From positions 1 to 64,000 of IMG/VR virus record IMGVR_UViG_3300046517_001051: a stretch of 64,000 nucleotides of DNA; one strand, given 5' to 3'. This document shows, piece after piece, positions 109 to 20,193 of this stretch. The notes below the pieces were generated by a model. It was not told the DNA's origin and searched no databases. It saw nothing but the letters and a program-made list of their open reading frames with translations. Numbering within the stretch: position 1 is the first letter of the stretch; each line of letters opens with the position of its first letter. The DNA is from a virus. Both the position numbers and the translations under genes were made by a program.

Positions 109-341
109 GGCTGGAGGATCCTCCGGACGGCGTCGTGACCTCTCGCCGGAACCTCGACACCGTTGATTCGGAAGATCAGACGAGGGTCGATGATCTTCTG
201 GCCATAGACCATGTCGAACTCGTAGCGCACGACCTTGCTTGGCTGCTCGACGACCTTGGCCGGCGCCGGCATCGGGAGGTGGCGGGCGAGGCCGAGCACG
301 GCGCCGGCGAGGCACGAGGACAAGAAGCTGCGGCGGTTCAC
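105..341 (-). CDS. Small protein with Tat-like signal peptide
   Basis: 78 residues from a GTG at 341, preceded by AGGTGG six bases upstream. A further in-frame GTG at 371 has a poorer ribosome site. The N-terminus reads MNRRSFLSSCLAGAVLGLA: a twin arginine followed by a hydrophobic stretch, as in Tat export signals, then a mature part of about 55 residues. A Cys at residue 9 lies inside the hydrophobic part. It could be exported or membrane-inserted in the host; the role is unknown. It sits in a run of small envelope-type genes (678-854 membrane protein, 1451-1945 lipoprotein), which suggests lysis or host-envelope work, but that is inference. Confidence 0.6.
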   Translation of the reverse strand: MNRRSFLSSCLAGAVLGLARHLPMPAPAKVVEQPSKVVRYEFDMVYGQKIIDPRLIFRINGVEVPARGHDAVRRILQP

Positions 342-384
342 TTGGTACCACCTGGAGTTGGTGGGAACCACTTCTCGGCCGGGG

Positions 385-681
385 TCACGGGTGCAAGACT
401 CGCATTAGATCGTGCATCGTCATCGTCGCCACGTCCTGTCCATCGGGGTCCCTATCACCAAGAGGACACTCATGGTATTTGCCGTTCATCAACAACGATC
501 GCAGACTCGCATAGCTAGGGCCCGGTCGATTTACGAACAAGAATGCATCCTTGATGTCAATCTGGACGAGCCGATAGCGAAGCCGATCGCGAGTTAGCGC
601 CAATTCGCGATCATGTAGTGCTGCATCGGCATCTGCCTTCCGCTTGGCGGCGACAGACCATGGCCAATGAAGAAAGCTCAT
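385..681 (-). CDS. Hypothetical protein, 98 aa
   Basis: The ATG at 681 overlaps the stop of the small membrane-protein gene (ATGA) and follows GGAGAG. The N-terminal half is a charged helix rich in Arg, Asp and Ala; the C-terminal half carries no motif I recognise. No membrane segment or Cys cluster is present. Function unknown. Confidence 0.65.
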   Translation of the reverse strand: MSFLHWPWSVAAKRKADADAALHDRELALTRDRLRYRLVQIDIKDAFLFVNRPGPSYASLRSLLMNGKYHECPLGDRDPDGQDVATMTMHDLMRVLHP

Positions 682-854
682 TGGCGTCTCTCCGCGCGCC
701 GAGACCAGAGGTCCCAGAACAGGTAGCCGGCGATGCTCGCGATCAGCAGTGCGATCGCAAACTGGGTCGCGAGAGGCAACGGCACATCCTGCTGCGCGAC
801 TTGCGCCGCGTGCCGGCTGGCGGCGTGCATGATCCATGTAGTTCCGAATGGCAT
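678..854 (-). CDS. Small membrane protein, holin candidate
   Basis: 58 residues from an ATG at 854. A single membrane helix spans about residues 26-48 (core LATQFAIALLIASIAGYLF), followed by a basic tail SRRAERRQ. Size, one helix and a positive C-terminus fit a holin or another phage inner-membrane protein. It fills the gap between the genes at 385 and 857 exactly (ATGA overlap downstream, two bases upstream), which argues that it is a real gene. No endolysin is seen beside it, so the holin role is only a guess. Confidence 0.55.
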   Translation of the reverse strand: MPFGTTWIMHAASRHAAQVAQQDVPLPLATQFAIALLIASIAGYLFWDLWSRRAERRQ

Positions 855-856
855 GG

Positions 857-1246
857 CTATGGCGTCGGCACCGGCGCGGCCGGCGAGCCCAGCGCGTTGA
901 GCTGCGCGACCACGGCGGTGAGGTGGGCCACCGCGTCCGCCGTCTGCTGCGGCGTGAGGCCGGTCGCCAGCTGAGCGGTGAGGCTGTCGATCGTCGCCTG
1001 GAGCGATGCGGCCGTGCTCGCGGCGGACGCCACGATGGTGGCGACGCGGGCCGTCGCGGCGTCGAGGGAGGTGAGGGCTACGTTGATGTCGTCTTGTGCG
1101 GTCATGGGGTCACTCGTACTGGTGGTAGTGGTGGGTGGAAAGAGGAAAGGGTCTCGGATGCCGTTGAGGACGTGGACGGACTGACGGATGCGCCACGCAA
1201 TCATCGCGTCGCGCTGGTGGAGGAGGGTAGTGGCTACGTCCTGCAC
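857..1246 (-). CDS. Ala-rich helical protein
   Basis: 129 residues from a GTG at 1246 with CGGGAG just upstream. The ATG at 1105 has a weaker site and would leave an unexplained gap, although codon usage stays typical upstream of it. Residues 1-33 are mixed helix, then a Pro/Thr/Ser linker (PPTTTTSTSDP), then a long Ala/Thr helix with heptad-like spacing (about 48-115) and a Pro-rich end. It overlaps the preceding gene by 13 bp. The helix-linker-helix form resembles small structural or trimerising phage proteins, but I cannot name a family. Confidence 0.6.
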   Translation of the reverse strand: MQDVATTLLHQRDAMIAWRIRQSVHVLNGIRDPFLFPPTTTTSTSDPMTAQDDINVALTSLDAATARVATIVASAASTAASLQATIDSLTAQLATGLTPQQTADAVAHLTAVVAQLNALGSPAAPVPTP

Positions 1247-5568: not shown

Positions 5569-5801
5569 GACACATCTTCTTTCTGGACGTCGTGACCCCA
5601 AATCTTGAGTTCCCGGTTCCAAGCCAGAACCGTTTCGGCCTTTGGGAAGGCAGTCACCTGATGGTCCCGGCAGCCCAGAGTCCAATACTTGAACCCGGAG
5701 ACCGAGGTGATCGCCTTCACCGAGGGATAGCGACCGCAGACCGAGCACCTCTTGGCGCGTGAAGAACGCTTTGCTTGCTTGGTTGCCATGCGGCTCTTCA
5801 C
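5565..5801 (-). CDS. Zinc-ribbon protein, Lar-like
   Basis: 78 residues from a GTG at 5801 (GTGA overlap); an ATG at 5789 is possible. The layout is CSVCG (about 22-26), an aromatic beta part, a single Cys with GCRDH, and a final AETVLAWNRELK helix. CxxC...C plus a terminal WNxR-type helix resembles the Lar restriction-alleviation family. One expected Cys is replaced by His. Lar proteins modulate type I restriction; here this is inference from a weak motif. Confidence 0.5.
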   Translation of the reverse strand: MKSRMATKQAKRSSRAKRCSVCGRYPSVKAITSVSGFKYWTLGCRDHQVTAFPKAETVLAWNRELKIWGHDVQKEDVS

Positions 5802-6067
5802 GACGCACCGCCTTCGGGCTTCTCGTCGGCCCATGGCGTCCCGCCCAGTGCTCGGATCTTCTCGCGCAGTGCGACGCACTCCGCAGCAAGCTTCCCGTCG
5901 GGATCGCCATAGTCGCTGATCTCGTTCTCGATACCCCCGAGTTCGTAGCATTCGGCGCAGGCGCCGACGTCCGCGCCATCAGCGCCCGTCTTCCGGGTCA
6001 ACCGGCCGCAGCAACGGCAGGTGTAGCAGCCTGAGCCGCGGGCGAAGCGATTGGAAGGGGCGCTCAC
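5798..6067 (-). CDS. Zinc-ribbon hypothetical protein
   Basis: 89 residues from a GTG at 6067 (GTGA). The N-terminal half holds CYTCRCC and CAEC, giving at least two Cys pairs for a zinc ribbon. The C-terminal half is charged and helical. Function unknown. Confidence 0.55.
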   Translation of the reverse strand: MSAPSNRFARGSGCYTCRCCGRLTRKTGADGADVGACAECYELGGIENEISDYGDPDGKLAAECVALREKIRALGGTPWADEKPEGGAS

Positions 6068-6330
6068 AGCTCACCTCCGATCTTCGCGAGCAGCTCGCGG
6101 ACCTCGTCCAGCTCCGAGTTCGTCATCGTCTTCGACCAGCGGGCGCCGCCCGTGCAGCGCTCAACGAGGTCGACGGCCGCGTCGAACCACTCCGGCGCTC
6201 CGGCCGCGGAGTTCTCCGGGCCGGCCTCGCCGACGACGCCATCAATGGCGATCGCGAGGGCGTTGTGGCGGAGGCGCTCGATGTTGACTTCCATCTTCGA
6301 GACCCAGATCGTGGCGGCGGTAAGTTTCAC
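6064..6330 (-). CDS. Hypothetical protein, 88 aa
   Basis: GTG start at 6330 in a GTGA overlap. Acidic and helical, with the ending LDEVRELLAKIGGEL. One Cys, no motif. Function unknown. Confidence 0.55.
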   Translation of the reverse strand: MKLTAATIWVSKMEVNIERLRHNALAIAIDGVVGEAGPENSAAGAPEWFDAAVDLVERCTGGARWSKTMTNSELDEVRELLAKIGGEL

Positions 6331-6725
6331 AGTGCCACCTCCTTCGTCACCTGCGCCGTCGTCCGAGCGAGATCCGTCACCGCGCCGACGATCATCGAGT
6401 CGATCTGGGCCGTCAGGTCGTTGAAGCCGCGGACGAAGTCAGCGAGCATCCGGCCGGCCTCATCGCGGATTCGCTGCTGGGTCGCGTTGCGGAGGTAGGC
6501 GCTGCGCTCGGCGTCGTAGTCGCCCTCGGCGAGCCGGGTCTCGGTCCGAGCGATCTCCTTCGTCATGTCGGCGACGATGATCGCGCGAATCGCGGAGCGG
6601 ACCGACATCTCCGAGAGGTCGTTGTTGATCACGGAGGCGACCTCGCGCGCGCGGCGCTCGGCGAGGTAGAGGTTCTGGGTCTTCTCGGCGGCCAGAGCGA
6701 GCAGCAGGTTCACGTTCGTCGTCAT
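6327..6725 (-). CDS. Helical hypothetical protein, first gene of its unit
   Basis: 132 residues, almost entirely helical and rich in Ala, Arg and Glu. The ATG at 6725 follows ACAGGA, a ribosome site that recurs before first genes in this genome. It directly follows the control region 6726-6853, so it is likely the first gene of a unit running to the sigma factor and nuclease. No known domain. Confidence 0.65.
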   Translation of the reverse strand: MTTNVNLLLALAAEKTQNLYLAERRAREVASVINNDLSEMSVRSAIRAIIVADMTKEIARTETRLAEGDYDAERSAYLRNATQQRIRDEAGRMLADFVRGFNDLTAQIDSMIVGAVTDLARTTAQVTKEVAL

Positions 6726-6853
6726 GTTTAGTTTCCTGTAAAGGGAGCGTCGCGGGGTCAGCCGCAACGAGGACAACGCTACCCTATCGGCCGGAAAACG
6801 CTACCTCTTTCCAAGAAAAACTTTGTAGACCTAACTCGACTTAGATCAACGAC
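6726..6853 (-). promoter_or_regulatory. Control region shared with 40316-40440
   Basis: 128 non-coding bases upstream of the 6725 gene. The segment 6772-6822 matches 40370-40420 in order and spacing: GACAACGcTACC, TATCGGCC/GATCGGCT, GGAAAACGCTA, then CCAAGAAA and CTTTGTAG-like elements. On the minus strand two copies of TAGCGTT occur about 22 bases apart. Such a doubled element before an operon start suggests a promoter with a paired operator, possibly read by the phage sigma factor. No host-like -35/-10 pair is evident. Confidence 0.55.
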
Positions 6854-7471
6854 TTACGGCGACCGGCGGAAGAAGCTGACGAGCCGGACGCGGTGGTTGG
6901 TCGAGCGGACGAGCCCGATGTGGCCCCAGGTTTCCCAGTCGCGCTTCTCGTGCATCGGCCACCGCGTGTCGAGCCAGACGAGAGTCGCGCCCGGCCGCGC
7001 CGCGCGCCAGAGACCGCGAAGGACGGCCGCGCAATTCGGCATCGGGTGGTCGTAGCGTGCCGCGTCCTCGACGGAGTAGGGCGGGTCGGCGAGGATCAGG
7101 TCGAACGCCTCCACCCAGCTCGCCGGCAGCGCATCCGCCTCGCACTGCGTCGTCGGGAAGCGGCCGGCCTCCGGACCCTTCGCGTCGACCAGCTCGACTC
7201 GCGCGAGGCGCTTGCAGAACCTCGCCGCCTCGCTCGTCGCCGTCGCGATGTCGAGCCCGCCGCTGAAGAGATGGAGCACGCTCGTCGCCTCGGGGAACAT
7301 GCAGTGCACCCGTTCGAGGTAGCCGCGCGGGTACGCGCCATAGAGTTGGTTGGGATTCTTGTAGGCGGCGCCGATGCACCACGTCCCCGTGAGCCATCCC
7401 TTCGACGCGCCGAGCGACGGGCGATCGGGGAAGTGCTCGGAGTAGAGCCGGGCGCAGGTCTTGGCGATCAC
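6854..7471 (-). CDS. DNA methyltransferase (DPPY type)
   Basis: 205 residues from a GTG at 7471 (GTGA overlap). A SAM-binding motif I-like segment LHLFSGGLDIA lies at about 71-81, and the catalytic motif IV DPPYS of N6-adenine/N4-cytosine DNA methyltransferases at about 139-143. There is no clear target-recognition domain, so specificity cannot be told. It may protect phage DNA from restriction, alongside the base hypermodification genes. It is the last gene of the replication block and ends at the 6726-6853 control region. Confidence 0.7.
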   Translation of the reverse strand: MIAKTCARLYSEHFPDRPSLGASKGWLTGTWCIGAAYKNPNQLYGAYPRGYLERVHCMFPEATSVLHLFSGGLDIATATSEAARFCKRLARVELVDAKGPEAGRFPTTQCEADALPASWVEAFDLILADPPYSVEDAARYDHPMPNCAAVLRGLWRAARPGATLVWLDTRWPMHEKRDWETWGHIGLVRSTNHRVRLVSFFRRSP

Positions 7472-7677: not shown

Positions 7678-7935
7678 TCAGTTCGTCCTGAGTAGGTAGG
7701 CGTTGTATTCGAGGCGCAGCGTGACACCCTCTCGCGTCCACTCGCAGTACGCGTCGCTTCGGTAGTTGTAGTCGCGCGCCGTGATGAACAGCTCGCGCGG
7801 AACCGGCACGCCGGCTTTCTGGAAGGCTATGCCGATGAGGTTGTTGATGACGATCAGCTCGTAGTGTTGGTCCGTCTCGATGAGATAGATCCGTCCCGCG
7901 CCCTTTGGCCTCGGCGGGTGGACGCGGACCGCCAC
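7678..7935 (-). CDS. Hypothetical protein, 85 aa
   Basis: GTG at 7935 overlaps the TAG of the DNA polymerase gene by one base. A beta-rich protein with several Tyr, placed directly behind the polymerase. Function unknown. Confidence 0.6.
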   Translation of the reverse strand: MAVRVHPPRPKGAGRIYLIETDQHYELIVINNLIGIAFQKAGVPVPRELFITARDYNYRSDAYCEWTREGVTLRLEYNAYLLRTN

Positions 7936-9845
7936 TAGTGGCCCCAGGTATCCGTGACAATCTCGTGGTCGACGCGCAACGGCACGCTGAGGCGCATCTC
8001 CCGCTCCTCCAGTCGGTCGATGATGGGCTGCTGGAACTCGCGGAGTGCCTCCACCTTCCCGTGCCAGAGGATGGCGTCATGGACGTTGACGCGCTGGGTG
8101 ATGCCGGCTGCCTTCAGCTCGGGCCAGTAGCGCGGCGCCGTCGCGATCATGCGGCGCTTGATGAGGTCCATCGCCGAGCCCTGGCAGACGGTGTTGAATG
8201 CCTTGTGCGCGCCCTTCGGCGGGAGGTGGCGCCGGCGGCCGTAGAGGTTGTAGACGTAGCCGCGCCGGGCGGCGGTGTTCTCGGCGTAGCGCGACGTGGC
8301 TCGGAGGGTCGGCAGCCTCTGGTGGTAGGTGAGGTAGATGTCCTCGCCCTTCTCGGCGCAGAGTTCCTTGTGCGCGGCGAGCCGGCCCGACTCCTCGATC
8401 TCGCCGGCAGCAATCATGCGCTCGACGGCGGCGGTGACCTCGGCGATGACGTCCTCGTTTCCCGCGAGACCGGCGACGGTGCGGCGCTGGCCGGCGCCGA
8501 ATGCCATGGCGAAATTGATCGTCTTCGCCGGCTTGCGTTTGATGCGGCAGAGGTCCGCCACCCACTGGTGGAAGTCCGTCTTGGGATCCTCGTTGTAGGC
8601 GCGGATGATGTCTTGGTTCTGGATGTAGTGGGCGATGATGCGGAACTCGATCTGGCTGTAGTCCGCGATGAGGAACCCATCGCCGGGGCCGTCGGTGTGG
8701 ATGAGAAGCTTGGCTCGCTCGTCGAACTGCTGCGTGTTCGGCGCGGAGCAGCTCATGCGGCCGGTGCGGACGACTTGGTTGTAGCGCCCGTGGACGAGGT
8801 TGTTGGGGTCCGCGTTCTCCAAGAAGCCGCTGACGAACAGCGAGCGGTAGGTCGACTCCTTCCGCAGCGCCGCCATCGACTTCACGACCTCGTAGCGCAG
8901 AGGATTGTGGACCACCTCGGGGTGGACGAGGTAGAGCTTCAGGGCGTCCTTGTCGAAGGACGGATTGCCACCGCCCTTCGTCCTCGCCAAGATCGGCAGG
9001 CCCCACATCGCCACCAGCAGCTCGTAGGCGAATGCGGGGCCGTCGGCATATTCCAACTTGGTCAGCTCGTTGATGCGCGTGGCCAACTGGATCTGCTTGT
9101 AGATGGACTTGACGTCCTCCTTCATGAGCTGCCCGCGGTCGACGCGGAGGCCCGCCTTCTCCATGTCCCAGAGCACTGGCGTGAGCAGCTTCTCCATCTC
9201 CCACGTCGGGCGCACGCCCTCGACGAGGTTCTTGTCGATGAAGTGGAATAGGGTGCGGTTGTTGAGGACGTCGTCGCAGGTGTAGCCGGCCATGAGGTCC
9301 GCCGGCACGAGGGCGTAGTCATTCGCCTTCCGGTTGCGCGGCAGCTTGTAGCCGTCGAGCCAGGTCCGCACGTCCATCGCGCTCGTCTGGTCGATGTTGA
9401 GCCAATCGCGGGCGAGCTGCTTCAGGCCATACTCCATCAGGTCCGACTCGTGGCACTTCGCCATCGTGAGGGTGCAGTGCGTCTTCCCGCTGGCCAGCTC
9501 GGCGCCATCCGCCGCGGCGAAATGAGCATCAAAGTTGACGTGGTGGTTGATCCACTCGTCGGAGACCTTCAGCAGGTCTTGCAACCACCGCAGAGCCGGC
9601 TCCAGCTCAATGTTCATCTTCGAGTTGCGGTGTCGCAGCGGCACGTAGTGCGCCGGGCCGTCGTCGTCGAATGCCAGCGCCCATCCACACGCTCGGTCGC
9701 CGAGGTATGGATCGTTGCCCGACTCGTTCAGCTCCTCGCCCCGCCGCCTCGTCTCGCAGTCGAGGAAGATGCGCGCGCCGGGTCGCGGTGCAGGCAGCTC
9801 CGTCGAGTTCTCGACCATGAAGTGTCTCGGCCCTACTTGCAGCAT
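7935..9845 (-). CDS. Family A DNA polymerase with 3'-5' exonuclease
   Basis: 636 residues. The start at 9845 has GAGGAG upstream and overlaps the previous gene by 13 bp. Exonuclease motifs: FLDCET (D29/E31), NFDAHF (D106) and YTCDD (about 188-192). Polymerase motifs: A, ADYSQIEFR (D395); O-helix RKPAKTINF with R437, K441 and F445 at the family spacing; C, VHDAILW (about 590). All catalytic acids are present, so it should be an active replicative enzyme with proofreading. The residue matching E. coli Pol I Tyr766 is Phe (F449). It lies next to the primase-helicase, forming the core replisome. A polymerase that uses 5-hydroxymethyl-dUTP would be expected here. Confidence 0.93.
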   Translation of the reverse strand: MLQVGPRHFMVENSTELPAPRPGARIFLDCETRRRGEELNESGNDPYLGDRACGWALAFDDDGPAHYVPLRHRNSKMNIELEPALRWLQDLLKVSDEWINHHVNFDAHFAAADGAELASGKTHCTLTMAKCHESDLMEYGLKQLARDWLNIDQTSAMDVRTWLDGYKLPRNRKANDYALVPADLMAGYTCDDVLNNRTLFHFIDKNLVEGVRPTWEMEKLLTPVLWDMEKAGLRVDRGQLMKEDVKSIYKQIQLATRINELTKLEYADGPAFAYELLVAMWGLPILARTKGGGNPSFDKDALKLYLVHPEVVHNPLRYEVVKSMAALRKESTYRSLFVSGFLENADPNNLVHGRYNQVVRTGRMSCSAPNTQQFDERAKLLIHTDGPGDGFLIADYSQIEFRIIAHYIQNQDIIRAYNEDPKTDFHQWVADLCRIKRKPAKTINFAMAFGAGQRRTVAGLAGNEDVIAEVTAAVERMIAAGEIEESGRLAAHKELCAEKGEDIYLTYHQRLPTLRATSRYAENTAARRGYVYNLYGRRRHLPPKGAHKAFNTVCQGSAMDLIKRRMIATAPRYWPELKAAGITQRVNVHDAILWHGKVEALREFQQPIIDRLEEREMRLSVPLRVDHEIVTDTWGH

Positions 9846-10558
9846 AGGCTCCTCGGTATCAGTGAGGTGTCGATCCCAACGGCGTCGTGGCGCTTCACCC
9901 AGAGTTGCGCGAGGCAGCAGGCGACCTCGGTGCCGAAGATCTCGGCGTCGTCGATCACCTTCTCTAGCTCGCCGAGGGTCGCGATGCTGGGGAGCGCCGC
10001 CTTGATCCTCGTCGCCCGAGCGATCAGCTCCCCGGTCGTGACCTGGACCGGGTCGAAGTCGAGGTCTTCCGGGTTGGCCCTCTGGCGCCGTAGGGCTCGT
10101 TCTGCGCCCGCCGGGTCCGAGAGGACCACTCGGCCTATGGTGTAGACGAAGTCGCCTAGCTGAGCCCCCAGCGCCGCGGAGACGAGCCCCTGGAGCCGGC
10201 TTAGGCAGAAGCACTCGACGACCAACTCGACCCAGGCGTCGACGAGGTTGCTCTGGGCGACGAGGCTGAGCGCGCCGTTGGACCGGCAGAAGGTCATCGA
10301 GACGTTCGGGTCCGGCCACGTCACGACGTCGACGTGCTCGAAGGCAGCGACGACCTGCTGGATCGGCGCCTGCCACTCGGGCAGCAGCGACATGAGTTCC
10401 TCCGCCATCGTGACGGACGGGAATCCTCGCGTCCAGAAGTGCGACAGCGGGTTGCCGATGCTGAGACTGGCGCCGACGAGCGGGCCGCGCTTTAGCAGCT
10501 CGCGGAGCAGCTCGCAGTAGACGGGGTCGAACTCGGGATAGCTGAGGCGGAGGGTCAT
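9833..10558 (-). CDS. Thymidylate-synthase-like protein, possibly degenerate
   Basis: 241 residues between primase-helicase and polymerase, overlapping both (TGATG at 10558). A stretch at about 89-150 can be aligned by eye with the dUMP hydroxymethylase at 21881-22903: TFCRSN versus VFCRSND, then similar spacing to an N..V...VL.E segment and a G-D/T-Y/F segment. The catalytic Pro-Cys motif of that enzyme is not found. It may be an inactive thymidylate-synthase-fold relative acting as a regulator or replisome partner. The match is short, so this stays tentative. Confidence 0.4.
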   Translation of the reverse strand: MTLRLSYPEFDPVYCELLRELLKRGPLVGASLSIGNPLSHFWTRGFPSVTMAEELMSLLPEWQAPIQQVVAAFEHVDVVTWPDPNVSMTFCRSNGALSLVAQSNLVDAWVELVVECFCLSRLQGLVSAALGAQLGDFVYTIGRVVLSDPAGAERALRRQRANPEDLDFDPVQVTTGELIARATRIKAALPSIATLGELEKVIDDAEIFGTEVACCLAQLWVKRHDAVGIDTSLIPRSLCCK

Positions 10559-13449
10559 CAGAACTGCTCGCCGTTGAGGTGCGGGGCCTCGGGCTCCGGG
10601 TGGCGACTCGGCGGATCGCTGCGCAGCTCCTTCAGGAGCGCGATGAACTCGGGATTCTTGGCGTACTCGCTGCGCGAGGTCCGCAGCAGCGCGCCCTTCC
10701 GGACGAGCAGGGACAGCAGCTGGCGCGAGCGGTCGAGGTCCAGCTCGCAGGCAGCCTGGAGGTCTTCGAGAGAGATCGTGTCGCGCCGAAGGAGGACGGA
10801 GGCCAGGTCGTCGGTGTTCTTGTAGCCGCGCAGGGCCTTCAGGATGAGCTTCGGATCTTGGACCGTGCTCATGACCTGCTGCGCGGCGCTGAACTCGGCG
10901 TAGCCCATCGCCGAGGATGAGTAGAGTGAGTCGAAGAAACGCGAGGCCCAGCGCACGTGGCGGGCTTGGACCAGCAACTGAGCGCCATCGACGGTGCTGA
11001 ACGTCCGCGCGGCGATCGAGCCGGCGAGGCGGGCAATCTTCAGCTTCATCGAGCCCCGGTCGACGAGCGGCACCGCCTCGTTGAACTTCGCGCAGAGCGT
11101 CCTCGCCTCCGCCATCGTCGTCGTCGTCGCCTCATCGTCGAAGACGACCTCTTCCGACTTGCGCGTCCACGTCCACAGGATGAGACGGCGCGAGCAGGCG
11201 GAGGTGACGAGGTGCTCGACGCGGGGACGGTTGCGCGCGAGGATGTTGATGGTCTCGTCGTCCATGTCGTCCTTGCTGACGGCGACAGCGAGGTCGATGC
11301 GGCGGACGTCTTCGAGGTTCCCCAGCAGCTCGTGGATGGCCTCGATGCCGAAGTGGTAGGAACTCATCGAGCGCGGGCTGCGCGGGTTGCTGAGCATCAG
11401 GATCCGCGTCCGGGCGAGTGCCCTGCGCCGCTCGATCTTCGGTATCTCGGCGATGCCCGATGACCGCATGTCCGTCAGCTTGCTGAGGACTTCGACGGGC
11501 GCACCCTTCAGCTCCTCCAGGATGACGAGGGCGCGATCGTGCTGCGGGATCGTGCCCCAGCGGACGAACCATCGATTGCCGAGCTGCTCCAGGCCGCCGA
11601 GGAGGCCCGCCACCGTCACGTTCTTGCAGTCGGTCTTGTCGCCACACCCATAGTGCGCCATGAGCCGGCCGGCGCACTCGCTCTTACCCTGCGACGAGTC
11701 GCCGATGACGAGGACGTTCGTCCAGCCGTTCACTTGCCGTCCATCGAAGCTGAAGAGGAGCGGTGAGTGCCACGCCACGTCCATCGCGAGGTGCATGTCG
11801 CGCCTCTTGAAGATCTGCGTGACGTTGGCCTCTAGGTCGCTGTAGATCTGGTCGAGCTTCTCCTCCAGCGCCTCGTCGGACCCGTCGCGCGGCCGGAAGA
11901 TCTCCAGGTCGCCCATCTCGCCGAGCGTCGGGGCGAACGAGGCGAGCGTGTCCTCCGTCTCTTCGCAGTCGCTCACCAGCAGCGTCGCCTGCTGTGTCTT
12001 CGGATGCGGGTATATCGCGCCCCGCATCTTGAAGGGGACGTTCAGCTCCACCTCCTTGTCCCCAATCACCATTGCGGGGTACCAGTCGTTCCCTCCCTTC
12101 TGTCCCGTCACGTCGATCGGGGGCGACACGCGGACGTCGTGGACGACGTGGTGGGACTTGGCGAGGAACGTGACGACCTTGCAGATGGGGATGCCGAGCG
12201 CCTCGCGGATCTTCTCGCGTTGGACCTTCTCGGGCTCGCCGACCATGCCGAGGATCGCCGGCGCTCCGGGCTCGATCTCCAGACTGACGATGCCGGTGTC
12301 GGGGTGTTCGTCTTCGAGGTGGACCGGACAAGAGTGGCAGTTGGGCTGCGACCGATCACACTCGATGTCGAGGAGGCGCGGCACCATGTATGGTGTCTGG
12401 TCCGCGGCGGCGACGACGGCCCGCACGTCGAGCAACTCGCCGACTCTTGAGCTGAGCGAGGCGTCGCGGAGGCTGACCGATCGGGGCTCGCCCTTCGCCA
12501 CCGCCTGCTTCGTCGGCGGGGTCCACTCGACGGCGGAGGCCATCGCCGCCTGGAAGTCCACGAGCGTCGCCCCGCACTGGCCCACCCAGTCGTTGATGTC
12601 GCCCTTGGGGAAGTTCTTCGTATCGAGCGGCAATCGAATGACACGGACCGACTTCACGCGGCTCCAGAGCAGCGCGCAGATGCGCCGCGTCGCCGCCACC
12701 CCCGCGTCGTCGACGTCCATGCAGACGAAGACGTCCTTGTCCTTCAGCTGCTCGGTCCAGGCCGGCTTCCAGCTGCCCTCGCCCCCGGTGCTGCTGACGG
12801 CAGAGGCGACGCCCTCCATGATCGTCCCGGCGACGAGGGCCTTCATCTCCCCGCCGCAGACCCAGACCGATGTGACATCCGGCCGCAGCGTCTGGACGTT
12901 GTAGAGGTGCGGGCCGGCGTGGCCGGGCGTATGCCTCATCTTCTGCGGGCCGGCGGCGCCCGGGAGGTACCTCTTCACGTTGACGGCCCGACGTTGCGCA
13001 TCGTAGACCGGGATCGTGATGCGGCCGTCGTAGAATCCAAGGCGAGCGGCGCGGATCATCTCGTCGGTCACGCCGCGCTTCCGCAGCTCGACGAGCAGAG
13101 GGCCAGCCTCCCAGACGGCCGCGTGGAACTTCTCGATGGTCTGCGACGGGATCTCGGCGACCCCTTCGAGCTGGTCCGGGTACCGCTTCTCCAGGTCTTG
13201 GAGGGCGATCAGCCGGGGCACCTTCAGCTTGTAGGCGATCAGCGCCGCGATGTCGCCTTTAGCTCCGCAGGACGGAACATAGCACCGCCAGACACCCTCT
13301 GTCAGATTGAAGGATGCGCTGGGGGTCTGGTCATCGTGGGCTGGACAGCAGAACTTGACCTGGCTCTCGCCGGCCGCCTCCCACTTGATGCCGAGCCGAT
13401 CCAGCTCGGGCAGCACGTCGATAGACTTGAGACCCCTCGCGCGACTCAC
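10558..13449 (-). CDS. Primase fused to MCM-like AAA+ helicase
   Basis: 963 residues from a GTG at 13449. Domain order: CHC2 zinc finger (C35, H38, C56, C61); Toprim primase core with E201 (CGGEMKALVA) and D245/D247 (MDVDD); a middle beta-rich part with a Cys cluster at C364, C371 and C374, placed like the MCM N-terminal zinc/OB region; then an AAA+ domain with Walker A GDSSQGKS (583-590), Walker B LVILEE (641-646), sensor-1 LSNP (N688) and Arg residues at 716-717; and a C-terminal winged-helix-like tail. The GDSSQGKS and SNP motifs resemble MCM rather than RecA/DnaB helicases. It would prime and unwind at the fork with the family A polymerase. Confidence 0.8.
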   Translation of the reverse strand: MSRARGLKSIDVLPELDRLGIKWEAAGESQVKFCCPAHDDQTPSASFNLTEGVWRCYVPSCGAKGDIAALIAYKLKVPRLIALQDLEKRYPDQLEGVAEIPSQTIEKFHAAVWEAGPLLVELRKRGVTDEMIRAARLGFYDGRITIPVYDAQRRAVNVKRYLPGAAGPQKMRHTPGHAGPHLYNVQTLRPDVTSVWVCGGEMKALVAGTIMEGVASAVSSTGGEGSWKPAWTEQLKDKDVFVCMDVDDAGVAATRRICALLWSRVKSVRVIRLPLDTKNFPKGDINDWVGQCGATLVDFQAAMASAVEWTPPTKQAVAKGEPRSVSLRDASLSSRVGELLDVRAVVAAADQTPYMVPRLLDIECDRSQPNCHSCPVHLEDEHPDTGIVSLEIEPGAPAILGMVGEPEKVQREKIREALGIPICKVVTFLAKSHHVVHDVRVSPPIDVTGQKGGNDWYPAMVIGDKEVELNVPFKMRGAIYPHPKTQQATLLVSDCEETEDTLASFAPTLGEMGDLEIFRPRDGSDEALEEKLDQIYSDLEANVTQIFKRRDMHLAMDVAWHSPLLFSFDGRQVNGWTNVLVIGDSSQGKSECAGRLMAHYGCGDKTDCKNVTVAGLLGGLEQLGNRWFVRWGTIPQHDRALVILEELKGAPVEVLSKLTDMRSSGIAEIPKIERRRALARTRILMLSNPRSPRSMSSYHFGIEAIHELLGNLEDVRRIDLAVAVSKDDMDDETINILARNRPRVEHLVTSACSRRLILWTWTRKSEEVVFDDEATTTTMAEARTLCAKFNEAVPLVDRGSMKLKIARLAGSIAARTFSTVDGAQLLVQARHVRWASRFFDSLYSSSAMGYAEFSAAQQVMSTVQDPKLILKALRGYKNTDDLASVLLRRDTISLEDLQAACELDLDRSRQLLSLLVRKGALLRTSRSEYAKNPEFIALLKELRSDPPSRHPEPEAPHLNGEQF

Positions 13450-13582: not shown

Positions 13583-14419
13583 CTAGAACGGAGCGGCGCC
13601 GTTGGGCGAGTCGTCGCGCGCGATGCCGTCGGAGTCCCCACCTTCCGCGGCCACAGCCTCCTCGTGCTTCACCGAGAGGTCGCGCGACAGGTAGTCCTTC
13701 AGCAGCTCCTTGTGGAGGGCCTCGGCGATCGGAGCGTGCTCGGGCGAGATCCAGGGGCTGGCCGGAGCGTCGGGGTTGCGGAACCCAGCCACCCAGTACT
13801 CATGGCCCTCGCGGTCCCTCGCCACCTCGGGCGCGAAGGAGAACACGCAGCCGTAGAGCGGGACCTGCTGGCCCTGGATGCGGCGCATCTTGATCGCGTC
13901 GATGAGCGCCTTGCCCTTCCGGAATCCGCCGCGCGAGTAGCTCAGCGTGACGGGCATGCCCTGCAACTCATGCTCGCCGTAGACGACGCAGACGAAGTTG
14001 AGGTGGTGCGAGTTGCGCCTGAGGAACTCGTTCTTGGCGCCATACTTCTCCTCCCAGCGCTTCGGGTCGAGCGCCTTGCTACCGACGAGGCTCGCCGGGT
14101 CGAAGGACTTCGCCTCAATCATCGGGCTGGCCTTGTCCTTCCGGTCGTTCCACGAAATGTACTCGTCGAAGAACAGCAGCGGCACCAGCGAGACCCGCTC
14201 GCCGACCTTGCAGAGGGCCTTCTCACCAGAGACCAGGACGAGGCTACCCTCACCATACTTGGTCTTCAGCTCGCTCGCCGTCATCGCCTGGATGACTGAG
14301 ACGCGGGCGAGCGTCCGGTGGTGGCGCATCGTCGCCAGTGAGTCGTGCTCGTTCTGCTTGCCGATCAAGGCGAGCATGTGCTCTGGCACGGCGCCTACTC
14401 TCGTCAGTTCGTTACTCAT
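13583..14419 (-). CDS. Conserved-type phage protein, possible ssDNA-binding
   Basis: 278 residues from an ATG at 14419, overlapping the previous gene by 8 bp. A mixed beta protein with a block FDEYISWNDRKDKASPMIEA (about 86-105) and LNFVCVVYGEH (about 142-152), a later WVAGF part, and a strongly acidic C-terminal tail (EGGDSDGIARDDSPNGAAPF). Acidic tails are typical of single-stranded DNA-binding proteins, and the position just upstream of primase-helicase fits, but I do not recognise the family with certainty. Confidence 0.5.
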   Translation of the reverse strand: MSNELTRVGAVPEHMLALIGKQNEHDSLATMRHHRTLARVSVIQAMTASELKTKYGEGSLVLVSGEKALCKVGERVSLVPLLFFDEYISWNDRKDKASPMIEAKSFDPASLVGSKALDPKRWEEKYGAKNEFLRRNSHHLNFVCVVYGEHELQGMPVTLSYSRGGFRKGKALIDAIKMRRIQGQQVPLYGCVFSFAPEVARDREGHEYWVAGFRNPDAPASPWISPEHAPIAEALHKELLKDYLSRDLSVKHEEAVAAEGGDSDGIARDDSPNGAAPF

Positions 14420-14960
14420 CGGTCTGATCCTCTTTCTTCTCGTTGAGCCCACGCTTTTTGCGGAACACGGCCACGGCATCGGTGTGGGCGGCTACGATGC
14501 CGGGCGGTGGGTTCTCGCCGCGAGATTGCATCTCGGCGACGAGCTTTTGCATCTCAGTGAAGCTGAAGTCCAGGCGGTTGGTCGCGATGACCTCCTCTGG
14601 GACCTTCAGCCAGCGGAGCAGCTCGACGTACTCACGCGAGCCGCGCTTGGGGAGGCGGGGAATCGTCGTGACCTCGGCGCTGGCGGTGGCCAATTCGCCC
14701 TCCAGCTTGAGGTCCTCGCCGCGCAGGGCATAGGAGCACGCCTCGCCGGCGAGCCGGCGGCCGGCGAGGAGCTGCTTCGCGTCGCAGTTCTTCCTCATGT
14801 CGTCGAACGCATTTCGCATCTCGCGGAGGAGGTAGCCGCAGTCGACAAGGTCGTCGCGCGGCACCTGCTGGACCGCGTTCTGGAACTCGAAGAGCAGCAC
14901 CCCGGTCCGCGTCCAGAGGGCCTTCGCCTCTGAGTACAGCGCCTGGAGGTCCGTCTTCAT
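14412..14960 (-). CDS. Hypothetical protein, replication-associated
   Basis: 182 residues from an ATG at 14960; an upstream ATG at 14999 would overlap the previous gene by 32 bp. Helical, with two Cys in the middle and a charged C-terminus ending EKKEDQTDE. No known domain. It lies between the DUF3820-like gene and the acidic-tailed protein, so a role in DNA metabolism is likely only by position. Confidence 0.5.
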   Translation of the reverse strand: MKTDLQALYSEAKALWTRTGVLLFEFQNAVQQVPRDDLVDCGYLLREMRNAFDDMRKNCDAKQLLAGRRLAGEACSYALRGEDLKLEGELATASAEVTTIPRLPKRGSREYVELLRWLKVPEEVIATNRLDFSFTEMQKLVAEMQSRGENPPPGIVAAHTDAVAVFRKKRGLNEKKEDQTDE

Positions 14961-14967
14961 GACGTGG

Positions 14968-15231
14968 TCACTCGTAGTCTTCGTCGCGTTGTCTTCCATG
15001 TAGCTTCTCAATCTCGCGGTCTTCCTCAGCATCCATCTCTAGGGCGCGGCGCGACTCGTTGATGTAGACGAGGATCGCCGTCTTGTCATAGTTGTCCGGC
15101 ACCAGGTTGTCCCCGAGCCACAGCAGGTAAGCAGCCGGGACGTCGCGCAGGGCCTGCCCTCGGTATTTGCCGAAGGGCATCCGCGTGTCATCGGTGAACC
15201 GCTCCGCGCGAAGGTCGGGGCGCTCAGGCAC
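14968..15231 (-). CDS. DUF3820-like protein
   Basis: 87 residues from a GTG at 15231, overlapping the radical SAM gene by 8 bp. It carries the signature MPFGKYRGQALRDVPAAYLL (about 18-37), typical of the DUF3820 / exonuclease-associated family in phages and bacteria. The C-terminus is an acidic helix. The family has no settled biochemical function; it often accompanies nucleases and DNA repair genes. Confidence 0.7.
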   Translation of the reverse strand: MPERPDLRAERFTDDTRMPFGKYRGQALRDVPAAYLLWLGDNLVPDNYDKTAILVYINESRRALEMDAEEDREIEKLHGRQRDEDYE

Positions 15232-16624
15232 TAGGGTTCCCCCGCGGGTAGACTGCCTGCTTTAGGTCCGCCGTGCGGAGGGCCTTCGCGGACCCAAACA
15301 GCTCGCTGCCGCACCGTGGTTCCCCTTCGTTGTCGTCGGCGCAGTGGAGACAACCCGTCGGCGCGCAGGCCTTCACTTCCTCGAACCGGTCTCCGAGGTT
15401 GGCTCGCGAGAACATCGGGACCTTATGCCCGTGGCACTGGTCACTGGTGATGAAGTCTCGACCGATCGAGATGCCGCGCTTGCTGGTGATCTCGTCGGAG
15501 ATTGGGTCCCTAGCGTACTTGTACTCATAGCACGTTGCATACGTCAGGCCCAGTGCGGCGGCCCGCTGCGAGTAGCGTCGATGCCCCTCCAGCCGGTAAC
15601 TCTCCTCGACGGTCTTCTGACCGCCGATGTTGTCCTTGAAGAGGCGCTCGAACTCACCACCACGCTCGGGGCCGAACCGTTGCTTGATTCGATCAACCAT
15701 GGCCGGCGCCCAACTGAATCCCGCCTCGACGAACTTGACGATGACGTGATCTGCACCCGCTTCCTTCAAGAGGCCAAACAACGTCTCGACGTCGGAGTGA
15801 GTGACCACGCCGGGGACGATCGGGTTGCACTGAATGCTGACATAGATCCCCGCTGCCTTCAGCATCCGGATCTGGTCAAGGTGATCCTTGAGAGGGAGGG
15901 CGCCGGGGCTCAGCTTCTTCCAGTCTTCGGGAGACGGGGTGTTGATTGACTTCTGGGCGTAGCTGTATGGGTTCTGCTTCAGGAGATCGACGGCCCACGA
16001 CGGGTAGGGGAGTCGCGACAGGAAGAAGATCGGCACACCCTGCTCAACGAATGCTTCTGCTCCTTGCTGCGTGTTGTGGTAGACGTCTTCCAGCGGCAAG
16101 AACGGGTCCGTGAAGGACGAGAAGTAGCCGGCTGCCACCGTCTTCAACCGAGACAATTGAGAGCGAACTTGCGCCCCGTAGTGGACAGGGACTGAGACAA
16201 CACCCGAGCCTCGATAGCCGCGGAACCCCGAGTTGACGTAGCAGAAGGCACAGCCCACCGTGCAGTACCCGCCATAGGGCTCGGTCAGGATTGCATCCGT
16301 GAAGCATGGGCGGGGTCGACTCCGCTCGTCGGGGTCCGTCTTGCTCTGGTACCAGCCTTGCAGTGGCTTCGCTGAGTCGATGCGGATGTGAGGGAGGGGC
16401 TCCAGGTAGATCCGGACGTCTTTCTTGTTCTCATCCTCTGCATTGCGGACCATGCCGATGCGGGCGGTGCGCGACTTCATGATGCGGCCCGTCAGCTCGT
16501 CAAACTCTTCGATGATCGGCCCAAGATCGTCCTTCGGCTCTGGCCGCATGAAATACTGGTACGCCTCACGCGCGGGCTCATCGGAGCCCTTCATCCCGTC
16601 TTGCAGCCAAGCAGCATGATCCAT
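15224..16624 (-). CDS. Radical SAM enzyme, likely DNA base hypermodification
   Basis: 466 residues. The radical SAM [4Fe-4S] motif CTVGCAFCYV has C121, C125 and C128 (CX3CX2C). Near the C-terminus a second Cys set (C420, C425, C428, C438) suggests an auxiliary cluster. An N-terminal part of about 100 residues precedes the barrel. It is immediately preceded by a fold-type II PLP enzyme gene. In the thymidine hypermodification pathways of Salmonella phage ViI and Pseudomonas phage M6, a radical SAM enzyme and a PLP enzyme act on an amino acid joined to 5-hydroxymethyluracil in DNA. With the kinase, transferase and dUMP hydroxymethylase nearby, the same type of role is likely. The exact reaction is unknown. 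Confidence 0.75.
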   Translation of the reverse strand: MDHAAWLQDGMKGSDEPAREAYQYFMRPEPKDDLGPIIEEFDELTGRIMKSRTARIGMVRNAEDENKKDVRIYLEPLPHIRIDSAKPLQGWYQSKTDPDERSRPRPCFTDAILTEPYGGYCTVGCAFCYVNSGFRGYRGSGVVSVPVHYGAQVRSQLSRLKTVAAGYFSSFTDPFLPLEDVYHNTQQGAEAFVEQGVPIFFLSRLPYPSWAVDLLKQNPYSYAQKSINTPSPEDWKKLSPGALPLKDHLDQIRMLKAAGIYVSIQCNPIVPGVVTHSDVETLFGLLKEAGADHVIVKFVEAGFSWAPAMVDRIKQRFGPERGGEFERLFKDNIGGQKTVEESYRLEGHRRYSQRAAALGLTYATCYEYKYARDPISDEITSKRGISIGRDFITSDQCHGHKVPMFSRANLGDRFEEVKACAPTGCLHCADDNEGEPRCGSELFGSAKALRTADLKQAVYPRGNPSA

Positions 16625-16626
16625 GG

Positions 16627-17427
16627 TTAGCCTATGTTCCAGAAGAGAGTTGGGACTGAGTCCTGGAACCTAGTGAGGTACCAGCGCAGTGCCTTCAGGT
16701 CGTAGTATTCATTGCACGGAAATGGTGGCGTGATCCCCGCACGAGCAACGTCTTTGTAATCGTAACCTTCATCAACGATGAGTAAATCCAGTGGCGTCCG
16801 CTCAGTTCTCGATTGCTGTCGGAGGTAGCCCTCGACCTCCGTTGCAGAGCGCGAGTAACCGAGATGTATGACGAACTTTGGGGGCTTCTTTGCGCGAACG
16901 AAGCCCATGACGACGCCAGCGGCGATCGTCGCTGAGCTGGCAGGGATCACCACCCTTTCCACAGACAGAGAGGCAGGGACCTCATCCGCCGTCTCCTCGA
17001 CGGATTCAACTAGCTTCAGGGCATTCGGCATCATATAGGCGTTGGGGTCTTCTCGCATGAGCAGCTTGCGGGCGCCATGATAGATCACGCTAGAACGCCC
17101 CGCTGGGATCCCTCGTAGCTCGGCCCCCAGTTGCTGAGCTGCAAGCTGTTGCGGTGGAATGCCGGGAGCAGAATGAGCATAGAGGGGGTAGAAGTTGATG
17201 CATCGCTTCCCCAACCGTTGGCAGGCAAAGGCCACGGCATGGCCGGCTTGTGAGTGTGATGTGTCTAGCACGCCGATGGTCTTCGCGCTCAGCTTCGAGA
17301 GGTGAGCCCAGACCCCGCGAGCCTTCGAGAAAGGCGGCCCCGGCGGAAGACAGGATAGGTCCTCCCTCTTCACCCAGCAGCGAAGGGTCTCACGATGATC
17401 CTCGACCGGCGTGTTGTGCTGGATCAC
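16627..17427 (-). CDS. Fold-type II PLP enzyme (ACC deaminase/TrpB-like)
   Basis: 266 residues from a GTG at 17427 (GTGA). The N-terminus has VKREDLSCLPPGPPFSKARG with K35 as the likely Schiff-base lysine, as in the SxKxR/NKxR motif of fold-type II enzymes. HSQAGHAVAFACQRLGK follows, matching the substrate-binding SxGNxxxA region, and an SATIAAGVVMGF segment may bind phosphate. The protein is shorter than free-standing ACC deaminases (about 330-340 residues). Beside a radical SAM gene it most likely decarboxylates or rearranges the amino-acid moiety on modified thymine, as in the M6/ViI pathways. Confidence 0.7.
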   Translation of the reverse strand: MIQHNTPVEDHRETLRCWVKREDLSCLPPGPPFSKARGVWAHLSKLSAKTIGVLDTSHSQAGHAVAFACQRLGKRCINFYPLYAHSAPGIPPQQLAAQQLGAELRGIPAGRSSVIYHGARKLLMREDPNAYMMPNALKLVESVEETADEVPASLSVERVVIPASSATIAAGVVMGFVRAKKPPKFVIHLGYSRSATEVEGYLRQQSRTERTPLDLLIVDEGYDYKDVARAGITPPFPCNEYYDLKALRWYLTRFQDSVPTLFWNIG

Positions 17428-17780
17428 TGAGAGACCTCATCCTCACAATACTTCGGGTCGAGGAGTCGCAGCTTGTAGTCATTGTGGCGGGCGTCGTAGA
17501 TGAGCGCCTTGACCTGGCCGATGGGGTGAAGCTCGGATGCGACCATGAAGAGCATGACGCAGAGGGCGATGTTGCCGGTGACCGCAATGCAGTCGAGATC
17601 GGGGTCGAAGTCGAGGTCGCCAAGAGTACGCGCCATGTCTGCCATGCACTCCTTCGGGTTGAAGATCCCGCTCGGAAGACGCCGGTTGTCGTCGTAGAGG
17701 AAGACGATCTCGCCGTGCTTCTCCGCCGATGCGACGTCGAACCGGCACTTGGAAACGAAGAAGACTTTGCGTCGCGTCAT
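17424..17780 (-). CDS. Hypothetical protein, 118 aa
   Basis: ATG at 17780 in an ATGA overlap. An alpha/beta protein opening with a basic beta strand (MTRRKVFFVSKCRFD) and containing DFDPDLDCIAVTGNIALCVM, which recalls conserved phage hypotheticals. Four Cys, unpaired. It sits between the SNF2 helicase and the PLP enzyme. Function unknown. Confidence 0.6.
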   Translation of the reverse strand: MTRRKVFFVSKCRFDVASAEKHGEIVFLYDDNRRLPSGIFNPKECMADMARTLGDLDFDPDLDCIAVTGNIALCVMLFMVASELHPIGQVKALIYDARHNDYKLRLLDPKYCEDEVSQ

Positions 17781-19855
17781 GCGGCCTCCGTCAGGTTCAG
17801 CACTGATCTCAGCACCTCTCGTAGGTTGAGGGTCGAAGCAGCCATGTCCAGCTTGCCGTTGACCCGCTTCATGATCTCCTCGTCGATCGTTCCCGGCACG
17901 ATGAGGTCGACGACCTGGACCGGCATGCGCGTGCCGCGCCGGTGGGCTCGATCCTCGGCCTGCGACCGAAGGATTGCGGACCAGTTCGAGCTGAAGAACA
18001 CCTCTAGGTCGCAATAGGTATCTGTCGCACCAGGGTTCCGGGTGTCGTAGCCGAGGAGGTTCAGGCCCTCGGCGGCCGTCTGCGGGTTGCAGACAAGAAC
18101 CTTGAACTCTGGGTCGCAGTTGAAGGCATCGACGAGCTTGTCACGCTCTTGAGCCGAGACACCGCCGAAGTACGTGCCGTGCTTGATGCCGGCCTTCGTT
18201 AGCTCCCCGGAGATGCGCTCGATGTTCTGGATGAAGTTGCACCAGACGATTGTCTTGGCCCGTGGGTCGCGCTCGGGATCCTGGAGCAGCTCCATGAGGG
18301 CATCCACCTTCGGGTTGGTGGGCGCCAGCTCCTCGACTCTCTTCTGCTTCAGGACGTTCCCATCGGGGTCCACCTTGCCGTCGAACGTGATGAACCCGCT
18401 GGTGATCTGGGCGAGGCGGAGGAGCTTCGTGAGGACGTGGCCAATCGTCATCTCGTCGACGACCTTACCCATCGAGTCCTTCAGCTCCAGAGCCAGCTCC
18501 TCGCTGACGCGGCTGTAGACCTTCGCCTGGTGGAGGCTCATCTCGACCTCGACGACGCTCCGCACCTTGTCGGGCAGCATCAGACCGGCCTCCTCCTTCG
18601 TCACGCTGAAGCTCATCCGGGCAAGCCTCTCTTGTAGAAGTGGCACATGCTTCAGCCCAATGAGCTTCGCCACGCCCTGCTGGGCATAATAGTTGTGCTG
18701 CTTCCAGATGCCGTGAAAGTCCTTGAACGCCTTGAACGTCGAGAAGCCGCTGGCTCCTTCCCGAAGGAACTCCAGCTGCGCCCAGAGGTCCATCGGCGTG
18801 TTGCCGATCGGCGAGCCGGTGAGGATCTGCCGGCGCTTCGACGAGTCGCGGAGTGTGATCGCCGTCTTCCAGCGGAGGGAGCTGCGATCCTTGAAGAAGT
18901 GCGACTCGTCGGCGACGGTGATGTCCCACGGCATCTGCTGGAGCCACTCCAGCGTTGTCCTCGCCGAGTCATAGCTGACCACCGCGACGCTGAAGAGGAG
19001 GTCGTCCTCAGGCGCGATTACCTCGGCGATGCGGTTCACGCGGGTCGCCTTGTCGCCGCGGATGACGGCGACCTTGCCGGGCACCGTGGCAAACTTCTCG
19101 AACTCGCGCTGCCAGTTGAGGCGGACCTGCGCTGGGCAGAGCACGAGCACCAGCATCATCCGCCCGCCACCGCGCCGTGGGACGCCGCCCTTCATCTGGC
19201 CCGAGGACAGCAGCTGCGCCTCGGTGCAGACTCGCTGGATGAAACACGCCGTCTTGCCGGTGCCTCGATCCATGAAGAGGGCGAACGCATCAGAGCGGAG
19301 TGCGAGGCAGGTTGCGGTCTGCTGATAGGGGCTCAGGCGAGCCTCGGCCCGCTCCCTCCAGCAGTCGGGGGGCTTCGGGACCGTCCCGCTCAGCTTGAAC
19401 TCCGCGGCTCGCCGGACGGTCTGGTGCCCCAATGCCTCGATGGCGCTGGAGGCGCGGAAGATCTGCTGCGCCGTCTCATTGACGAAGACGAGTTGCTCCC
19501 TAGGCCAGGATCGGTTGATGACCTCCAGGGCAAACGATGTCGCCGGCGTCCGGTAGGTCTCCGACTTCTCGTGATAGCGAACCTCTGGGAGTCGCTTCCA
19601 GAGCTGGCGGGATGCCGCGCTGGCCGAGTCCCAGTGGTCGGCCATCTCTTTCTCGCCGAGCTTGTACGTCTGGCCACCGATCCTCTTGGTTGGCGACGAC
19701 GCGGCGACGAGAGGCTTGATGCGGAGTCCAAGATGGGTCAGCTTCTGCGACGCGGCGACGAAGAGGTAGTCATGCGAGTGGACTGGAATCGGCGAGAGGA
19801 ACTTCTTAGTCACCTCTGACAGATCCGCGTCGTCGTACTCCTCCGCGAAGTCCAT
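17777..19855 (-). CDS. SNF2-family DNA translocase/helicase
   Basis: 692 residues from an ATG at 19855 (TGATG); a GTG one codon earlier gives a GTGA overlap. An N-terminal extension of about 170 residues precedes LSPYQQTATC (Q motif), Walker A MDRGTGKTA (about 195-203), motif Ia LVLCPAQVRLNW, motif II DESH, motif III LTGSPIGNTP, motif V TAAEGLNL and motif VI QAEDRAHRRG. These are the full SF2/SNF2 set, so an active ATP-driven dsDNA translocase is expected. Phage SNF2 proteins are thought to act in replication, recombination or replication-fork restart. The CAF/zinc extras of cellular remodellers are absent. Confidence 0.88.
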   Translation of the reverse strand: MDFAEEYDDADLSEVTKKFLSPIPVHSHDYLFVAASQKLTHLGLRIKPLVAASSPTKRIGGQTYKLGEKEMADHWDSASAASRQLWKRLPEVRYHEKSETYRTPATSFALEVINRSWPREQLVFVNETAQQIFRASSAIEALGHQTVRRAAEFKLSGTVPKPPDCWRERAEARLSPYQQTATCLALRSDAFALFMDRGTGKTACFIQRVCTEAQLLSSGQMKGGVPRRGGGRMMLVLVLCPAQVRLNWQREFEKFATVPGKVAVIRGDKATRVNRIAEVIAPEDDLLFSVAVVSYDSARTTLEWLQQMPWDITVADESHFFKDRSSLRWKTAITLRDSSKRRQILTGSPIGNTPMDLWAQLEFLREGASGFSTFKAFKDFHGIWKQHNYYAQQGVAKLIGLKHVPLLQERLARMSFSVTKEEAGLMLPDKVRSVVEVEMSLHQAKVYSRVSEELALELKDSMGKVVDEMTIGHVLTKLLRLAQITSGFITFDGKVDPDGNVLKQKRVEELAPTNPKVDALMELLQDPERDPRAKTIVWCNFIQNIERISGELTKAGIKHGTYFGGVSAQERDKLVDAFNCDPEFKVLVCNPQTAAEGLNLLGYDTRNPGATDTYCDLEVFFSSNWSAILRSQAEDRAHRRGTRMPVQVVDLIVPGTIDEEIMKRVNGKLDMAASTLNLREVLRSVLNLTEAA

Positions 19856-20193
19856 CACCGGCGTTTGGTCGCCTTCGCGTGGTTCTCGGTGAGGAGCTTC
19901 AGCCATAGGGCCTGGGCAATGAGGTCGTCCTTCCTCGCGGCCTCGATCGTCGCCTCTAGGGCGAGGACTCGCTTCCGGTGGTCCTCGGTCGCGGTCGCGG
20001 CAGCGGCGCGCTGCTCGCGGAAGTGGACGAAGCGCGCCTGCGCCTCCTTCACGGCCTCCAGCAGCTCGGCCTCGCGCTTGTCGCAGGAGGCGGCGTCCGC
20101 CATCTTGTCCCAGTAGTCGCCGCGGTTCTTCAAAAGCCGGAGGCGCTCCTCTAGGGCCGTCACGCCGGGATGCTGTTCAGAGCTAGTCATCAT
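19855..20193 (-). CDS. Coiled-coil hypothetical protein
   Basis: 112 residues from an ATG at 20193 (ATGATG; ACAGGA upstream). Almost entirely helical with long Ala/Glu/Arg heptad-like runs, so likely a coiled coil. First gene after the terminator at 20215-20258. Function unknown. Confidence 0.6.
   Translation of the reverse strand: MMTSSEQHPGVTALEERLRLLKNRGDYWDKMADAASCDKREAELLEAVKEAQARFVHFREQRAAAATATEDHRKRVLALEATIEAARKDDLIAQALWLKLLTENHAKATKRR

Follow-up and report, generated by a model that had tools for sequence, protein, structure and literature searches.

MCM helicases have already been published from bacterial mobile elements (PMC5862659), as has BcMCM, a fusion of an archaeo-eukaryotic primase (AEP) with an MCM helicase (PMC4538821). 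In none of the searchable literature was a fusion of a DnaG/Toprim primase with an MCM helicase found to be described, although Kazlauskas et al. 2016, Samuels et al. 2009 or subscription papers may contain such a description. Here we report a gene with this predicted composition in IMG/VR virus record IMGVR_UViG_3300046517_001051 (66,403 bases), of which positions 1 to 64,000 were analysed (hereafter the window).

The BcMCM-type (AEP-MCM) proteins of Bacillus prophages, phages and plasmids, represented in the alignments by phage vB_BboS-125 and B. velezensis plasmid p3, share with the window protein the same MCM half, the same N-terminal fusion junction and a PolA-type polymerase nearby, but their primase is archaeo-eukaryotic rather than DnaG/Toprim. 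T7 gp4 (and Twinkle) likewise carry a zinc ribbon, a Toprim primase and a ring helicase in one chain. However, their helicase has the RecA fold of superfamily 4 (SF4), in which DnaB-type enzymes move 5'-3', whereas that of the window protein belongs by its predicted features to the MCM class of superfamily 6 (SF6), which moves 3'-5' (PMC4755419), and would probably share this polarity. Like archaeal MCM and eukaryotic Mcm2-7, the window protein is predicted to possess an OB/zinc tier, an AAA+ module with a helix-2 insert and a pre-sensor-1 hairpin, and a winged helix. It differs from them in that no A subdomain was aligned, a primase is attached, the identity is about 15% and the gene is carried by a bacterial virus. 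Cch of SCCmec, a comparison by description only, resembles it as an MCM-like helicase on a bacterial mobile element, but the accessible text on Cch mentions no fused DnaG primase (PMC7581432).

Domain composition and predicted structure

On sequence and model evidence, the open reading frame (ORF) at 13449-10558 is a DnaG-type primase joined to a complete MCM helicase, with the catalytic residues kept. The initial annotation, made from the DNA letters and their translations, had delimited this ORF as a primase fused to an MCM-type helicase, and its boundaries were recovered exactly (Table 1). The GTG start is preceded at 6 nt by the ribosome-binding-like GAAGGA, and the start residue is the same in close relatives. 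Matches to the fusion were obtained by tblastn in 154 of 50,697 phage records (47 of them over at least 80% of the length), and relatives are encoded in 145 of 172 pattern-matching stretches of viral contigs (the best 80 relatives being kept in each viral-contig search), so the ORF is not a chance one.

The CHC2 and Toprim domains named in the initial annotation were both detected by Pfam. The CHC2 match of the window protein lies just under the family cut-off (24.4 versus 24.9 bits), and its putative ligands are conserved among 61 aligned relatives (C35 in 59, H38 in 58 and C56 in all). Toprim_2 matched residues 214-277 (E 1.1e-4; 22.9 bits, above the cut-off of 22.1), and the catalytic glutamate and DxD motif are retained, with E201 and D245 present in 61/61 and D247 in 60/61. 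A profile of nine N-terminal halves matched DnaG structures (2au3, E 7.6e-26) and also the T7 gp4 primase domain (1nui, E 1.1e-7). No DNA_primase_S match indicative of an AEP/PriS-like domain was found in the window protein (Pfam, E<=1).

For the helicase half, a profile of 61 sequences (residues 316-963) was searched against the PDB. Of the 53 sequences matched at E<=10, 48 were MCM (best E 2.1e-8), the other five being HPr kinase (three) and adhesin competence repressor (two); no DnaB, SF3 or other non-MCM AAA+ protein was among them. In an hhalign comparison with five archaeal plasmid and haloviral MCMs, the alignment covered 523 columns (E 1.6e-16), spanning the OB fold through to the winged helix. 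The motifs GDSSQGKS, LVILEE and SNP, which had been read as recalling MCM rather than DnaB or T7 gp4, occupy residues 583-590 and 641-646 and include sensor-1 N688, respectively; K589, E646, N688 and R717 align to MCM motifs and are invariant in 61/61 sequences. The cysteine-containing beta region noted between the primase and the ATPase corresponds to the OB-like region at about residues 322-500. Four cysteines (C364, C371, C374 and C423), invariant in the same 61 relatives, sit in it like the zinc tier of MCM and form a putative metal site.

The match of the N-half to the T7 gp4 primase domain, together with PHROG and GenBank labels that read primase/helicase, could also suit a T7 gp4- or Twinkle-like protein with a divergent helicase of the RecA fold (SF4, DnaB-type) as its second half. 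That half, however, gave no DnaB match in the PDB profile search, and the window protein had no match to the RecA-fold ATPase DnaB_C in Pfam (E<=1). DnaB_C (PF03796) was absent from the window's own record (0/1) and from 38 related phage records (0/38; control 14/14), and the predicted structure described below is an AAA+ fold with MCM hairpins. An SF4 identity is therefore practically negligible in probability.

A D5/VirE-type SF3 helicase, or another AAA+ protein (MoxR, Mg-chelatase or dynein-like), would be a second alternative to MCM. SF3 helicases also bear a pre-sensor-1 hairpin, and weak matches to AAA_5 (12/61) and Mg_chelatase (2/61) were obtained when the family members were scanned singly with Pfam at E<=1. 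In the same scan, however, MCM was matched by 59/61 members and more strongly (best E 1.8e-10, versus 2e-4 for the others), among the 25 of 43 families listed, with families matched by a single member possibly outside this list. The PDB matches contained no other AAA+ protein, the alignment with MCM runs the whole way from the OB and cysteine tier to the winged helix, and the window protein matched no SF3 profile (Pfam, E<=1). The VirE-like domain PF05272 was found in 0/28 records, a scan in which the control was positive in just 1/14. This alternative is accordingly very improbable. Both the SF4 and the SF3 identities were rejected on the profile searches, the per-member Pfam scan and the record scans for DnaB_C and VirE.

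An AlphaFold model of the protein (mean pLDDT 91.6) was examined for the MCM-specific inserts, as the initial annotation had proposed, and both the helix-2 insert and the pre-sensor-1 hairpins are present in it. With the MCM, DnaB and D5 profile comparison also favouring MCM, the outcome is the opposite of a best match to D5/SF3 or RecA-type helicases lacking MCM inserts. All the matches listed by Foldseek (50/50) and VIA-align (50/50) were MCM or MCM-containing entries, the best by VIA-align being the MCM chain 6mii_E (Z 31.2, 457 residues, rmsd 6.3, model 321..857). The full-length alignments to MCM structures begin at fusion residues 316-324. In the 6mii_E alignment the model range opens at residue 321 and the chain range at 103; the primase therefore appears, in the model, to stand where MCM has its A subdomain, immediately ahead of the OB/zinc tier.

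Two primases on one MCM half, and relatives of the fusion

Beyond what the initial annotation had noticed, the same MCM half also occurs joined to a primase of a different, unrelated type (AEP). A search with the MCM half retrieved phage vB_BboS-125, and Bacillus velezensis plasmid p3 was found in a plasmid collection; in both, the N-half is an archaeo-eukaryotic primase (Pfam DNA_primase_S, E about 4e-10). Profiles of the AEP-MCM and window MCM halves match with E 2e-101, the 619 aligned columns extending from the OB fold as far as the C terminus. The part common to DnaG-MCM and AEP-MCM starts in both at one junction, immediately ahead of the OB fold. Judged by these alignments, the two MCM halves are one lineage, and two unrelated primases (DnaG/Toprim and AEP) are joined to one MCM chassis at the same junction.

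The 195 loci fetched, in which some contigs are represented more than once, contain 193 MCM ORFs of 500 aa or longer; of these, 165 carry a DnaG half, 23 an AEP half, none both and 5 neither; at 95% identity (n=141) the numbers are 129, 9 and, for neither, 3. Three of the five ORFs with neither primase run off the contig start, and two stand alone (L144:4935-6800 and L151:3886-5715), with no DnaG or AEP found in the fetched DNA; the former adjoins a QueC gene. Six more putative AEP-MCM loci, from Sutcliffiella, three Paenibacillus genomes and two Lachnospiraceae metagenome-assembled genomes, were recognised by the MCM-half query alone, one of them through a match confined to a short end piece. 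One AEP-MCM, on a viral contig of 175 kb, has its AEP part interrupted by an intein that bears a LAGLIDADG domain, the remainder following in a second ORF (L154:2611-4353 and 4425-7010). A first tree nested AEP-MCM within DnaG-MCM with weak support (77-90), and a second tree was compatible with one DnaG clade (p-AU 0.897), which had a better likelihood than the free tree; we therefore make no claim on the direction of primase exchange.

The same helicase type is carried by hundreds of related phages: a wider viral-contig search with both fusion types found relatives in 394/517 stretches. Most of the other phage records matched by tblastn, such as those of Cutibacterium phages, share the primase part only, and the annotation of one Cutibacterium phage has a DnaB-like helicase as a gene of its own next to the primase. 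No relative was present among 93 pattern matches in cellular genome contigs, the pattern being a narrow one and the result not evidence of absence there.

Proteins named 'DNA primase/helicase' in Microbacterium Krampusvirus, Arthrobacter Wollypog, Bacillus BSTP8 and Paenibacillus SV21 are homologous over most of their length (25-30% identity), and DnaG and MCM domains were identified by Pfam in the cases scanned. None of the GenBank labels seen for the named homologues mentions MCM. BSTP5 and Youna2 (L092 and L093) are labelled 'DNA primase small subunit' but have DnaG/Toprim and MCM domains by Pfam, so that these labels are likely misannotations. Residues 314-939 of the fusion match a PHROGs family (phrog_18685) listed as unknown function. 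Labels such as 'DNA primase' and 'unknown function' can thus hide an MCM.

Proposed role in replication

Within the fetched flanks of 60 non-redundant loci, a PolA polymerase was found in 36, DnaE in 16, both in none and neither in 8. From the domain content, the conserved catalytic residues and the predicted fold, together with a polymerase near in 52/60 loci and no DnaB_C-type helicase found in the records, we consider it very probable that the fusion is the phage's replicative primase-helicase, comprising an N-terminal DnaG-type primase and a complete MCM-type hexameric helicase. Exchange of the polymerase has been described for Caudoviricetes at large (PMC11348598); in these loci it occurs while the primase-MCM stays constant, and the Krampus and Wollypog records differ from the window in having DnaE as the partner. 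The mixed replisome with a Pol I-family polymerase proposed in the initial annotation is therefore fair for the window phage, where the adjacent polymerase is of that family, but does not extend to relatives that swap it for DnaE.

The yeast replisome has its primase on the N-tier of MCM, over the zinc-finger channel through which the lagging strand is extruded (PMC10501992). By homology, six subunits of the window protein would probably form a ring on the leading-strand template and move 3'-5' driven by ATP, while DnaG domains on the N-tier would lay primers on the excluded lagging strand for use by the phage polymerase, here PolA. Such a layout would reproduce the eukaryotic geometry within a single chain that uses a bacterial primase, and would be the opposite of that in T7 gp4. 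The T7 gp4 primase rides the strand that it primes.

The fusion may instead have a minor role as an accessory enzyme of fork restart, repair or recombination, with host DnaB driving the fork. A restart-like role was proposed for BcMCM in a review, which also reports 3'-5' helicase, ATPase, primase and polymerase activity for this AEP-MCM of a Bacillus cereus prophage (PMC4538821). Host helicases are always at hand, and RecA-like and RecB-like genes lie near 15 and 13, respectively, of the 16 dnaE loci. Against this stand the phage's own polymerase near most of the loci and the records without a DnaB_C-type helicase, and we regard an accessory role as unlikely.

Several observations weigh against reading the protein as a replicative primase-MCM. 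The window protein alone scores 14.4 bits to Pfam MCM, below the 23.3-bit cut-off, which is a detection threshold rather than an anatomical feature; homologues L091 (49.7), L094 (51.0), L092 (27.7), L093 (27.3) and L006 (24.0 bits) exceed it, and L003, L004 and L095 fall under it. Identity to MCM in the structural alignments is only about 12-17%, and the helical A subdomain at the MCM N terminus lies outside these alignments, which begin after it. The pTM of 0.72 leaves the arrangement of primase and helicase uncertain. The viral records are IMG/VR contigs and possibly fragments, which limits the absence counts, and the aligned AEP-MCMs share the architecture of BcMCM, itself known here from the review only.

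Taken more broadly, the evidence tips slightly towards a large, so far unnamed phage replicase family, in which one MCM chassis would be combined with two unrelated primases (DnaG/Toprim and AEP) at the same junction and with two unrelated polymerases (PolA and DnaE). In its DnaG form, a bacterial primase would sit on the MCM N-tier, and a 3'-5' leading-strand helicase would present the excluded lagging strand to its own primase. If this is true, the protein is a natural counterpart, in one polypeptide, of CMG plus Pol alpha-primase. Coupling of the two activities has so far been understood from 5'-3' helicases that carry primase along the primed strand (T7 gp4, DnaB-DnaG) and, structurally, from the many-protein eukaryotic replisome. 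A single-chain DnaG-MCM would be a purifiable system in which to study a bacterial primase that acts together with a helicase of opposite polarity. Isolated relatives (Microbacterium, Arthrobacter and Bacillus phages) grow on laboratory hosts, and the AEP-MCM sisters allow a matched comparison of the two primases on one helicase.

Neighbouring genes and other observations

Table 1. Positions in the window of the primase-MCM gene, its predicted domains and the genes around it
Feature	Position	Strand	Details
DnaG-type primase–MCM helicase fusion (predicted)	10558..13449	minus	963 aa ORF; GTG start at 13449
CHC2 zinc ribbon, DnaG-type primase	13228..13359	minus	residues 31-74; Pfam E 2.6e-5
Primase catalytic core with Toprim	12532..13152	minus	residues 100-306
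MCM N-terminal-like region, OB fold and C4 cysteine set	11950..12486	minus	residues 322-500
AAA+ ATPase module	11170..11877	minus	residues 525-760; Walker A 583-590, Walker B 641-646, sensor 1 N688, arginine-finger candidate R717
Helix-2 insert beta-hairpin	11542..11613	minus	residues 613-636; strands E618-623/E626-631 in model
Pre-sensor-1 beta-hairpin	11416..11454	minus	residues 666-678; strands E666-669/E675-678 in model
Helical lid, sensor-2 candidate R807	10921..11202	minus	residues 750-843
C-terminal winged helix	10657..10815	minus	residues 879-931
Family A DNA polymerase	7935..9845	minus	likely start near 9845 or 9818
241-aa ORF between fusion and polymerase	9833..10558	minus	no function assigned; ATG overlaps the end of the fusion gene
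Upstream gene, Pam3_Gp34-like	13583..14479	minus	homologues in 55 loci
SNF2-family helicase/translocase	17777..19906	minus	homologue in 66 fetched loci

The polymerase ORF as found spans 7935-10376, its longer GTG start overlapping another conserved ORF. The best NCBIfam match of the polymerase is DpoZ (195.7 bits, far below the cut-off of 500). The idea of a Z-genome was set aside on this score and on a search for a PurZ-like (adenylosuccinate-synthetase-like) gene in the record (0/1). Homologues of the 241-aa ORF occur in 35 fetched loci. For the Pam3_Gp34-like protein no Foldseek match was obtained at E<=0.001, and the structural matches are weak (best Z 7.8; gp32, Z 5.5); a gp32-like single-strand DNA binding protein is a weak suggestion from the model.

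Several further genes in the window could be a thymine hypermodification cluster: radical SAM (15224-16624, phrog_9252), pyridoxal phosphate-dependent, threonine-dehydratase-like (16627-17427, phrog_7093), dATPase/dNMP-phosphatase-like (21390-21959, phrog_7076/318), thymidylate-synthase-like (21881-22903, phrog_5131) and polynucleotide-kinase-like (23783-24352, phrog_505; also terminase small subunit phrog_800). The radical SAM and threonine-dehydratase-like genes had no homologue in the fetched loci. An NAD salvage pair is formed by a nicotinamide/nicotinate phosphoribosyltransferase (33527-35014) and the adjoining ribose-phosphate pyrophosphokinase (35011-35901). The region 48500-51565 encodes a protein similar to the 'megatron' baseplate protein of gene transfer agents (GTA; NF048004, E 2.5e-45, below cut-off), suggesting a GTA-like siphophage tail.

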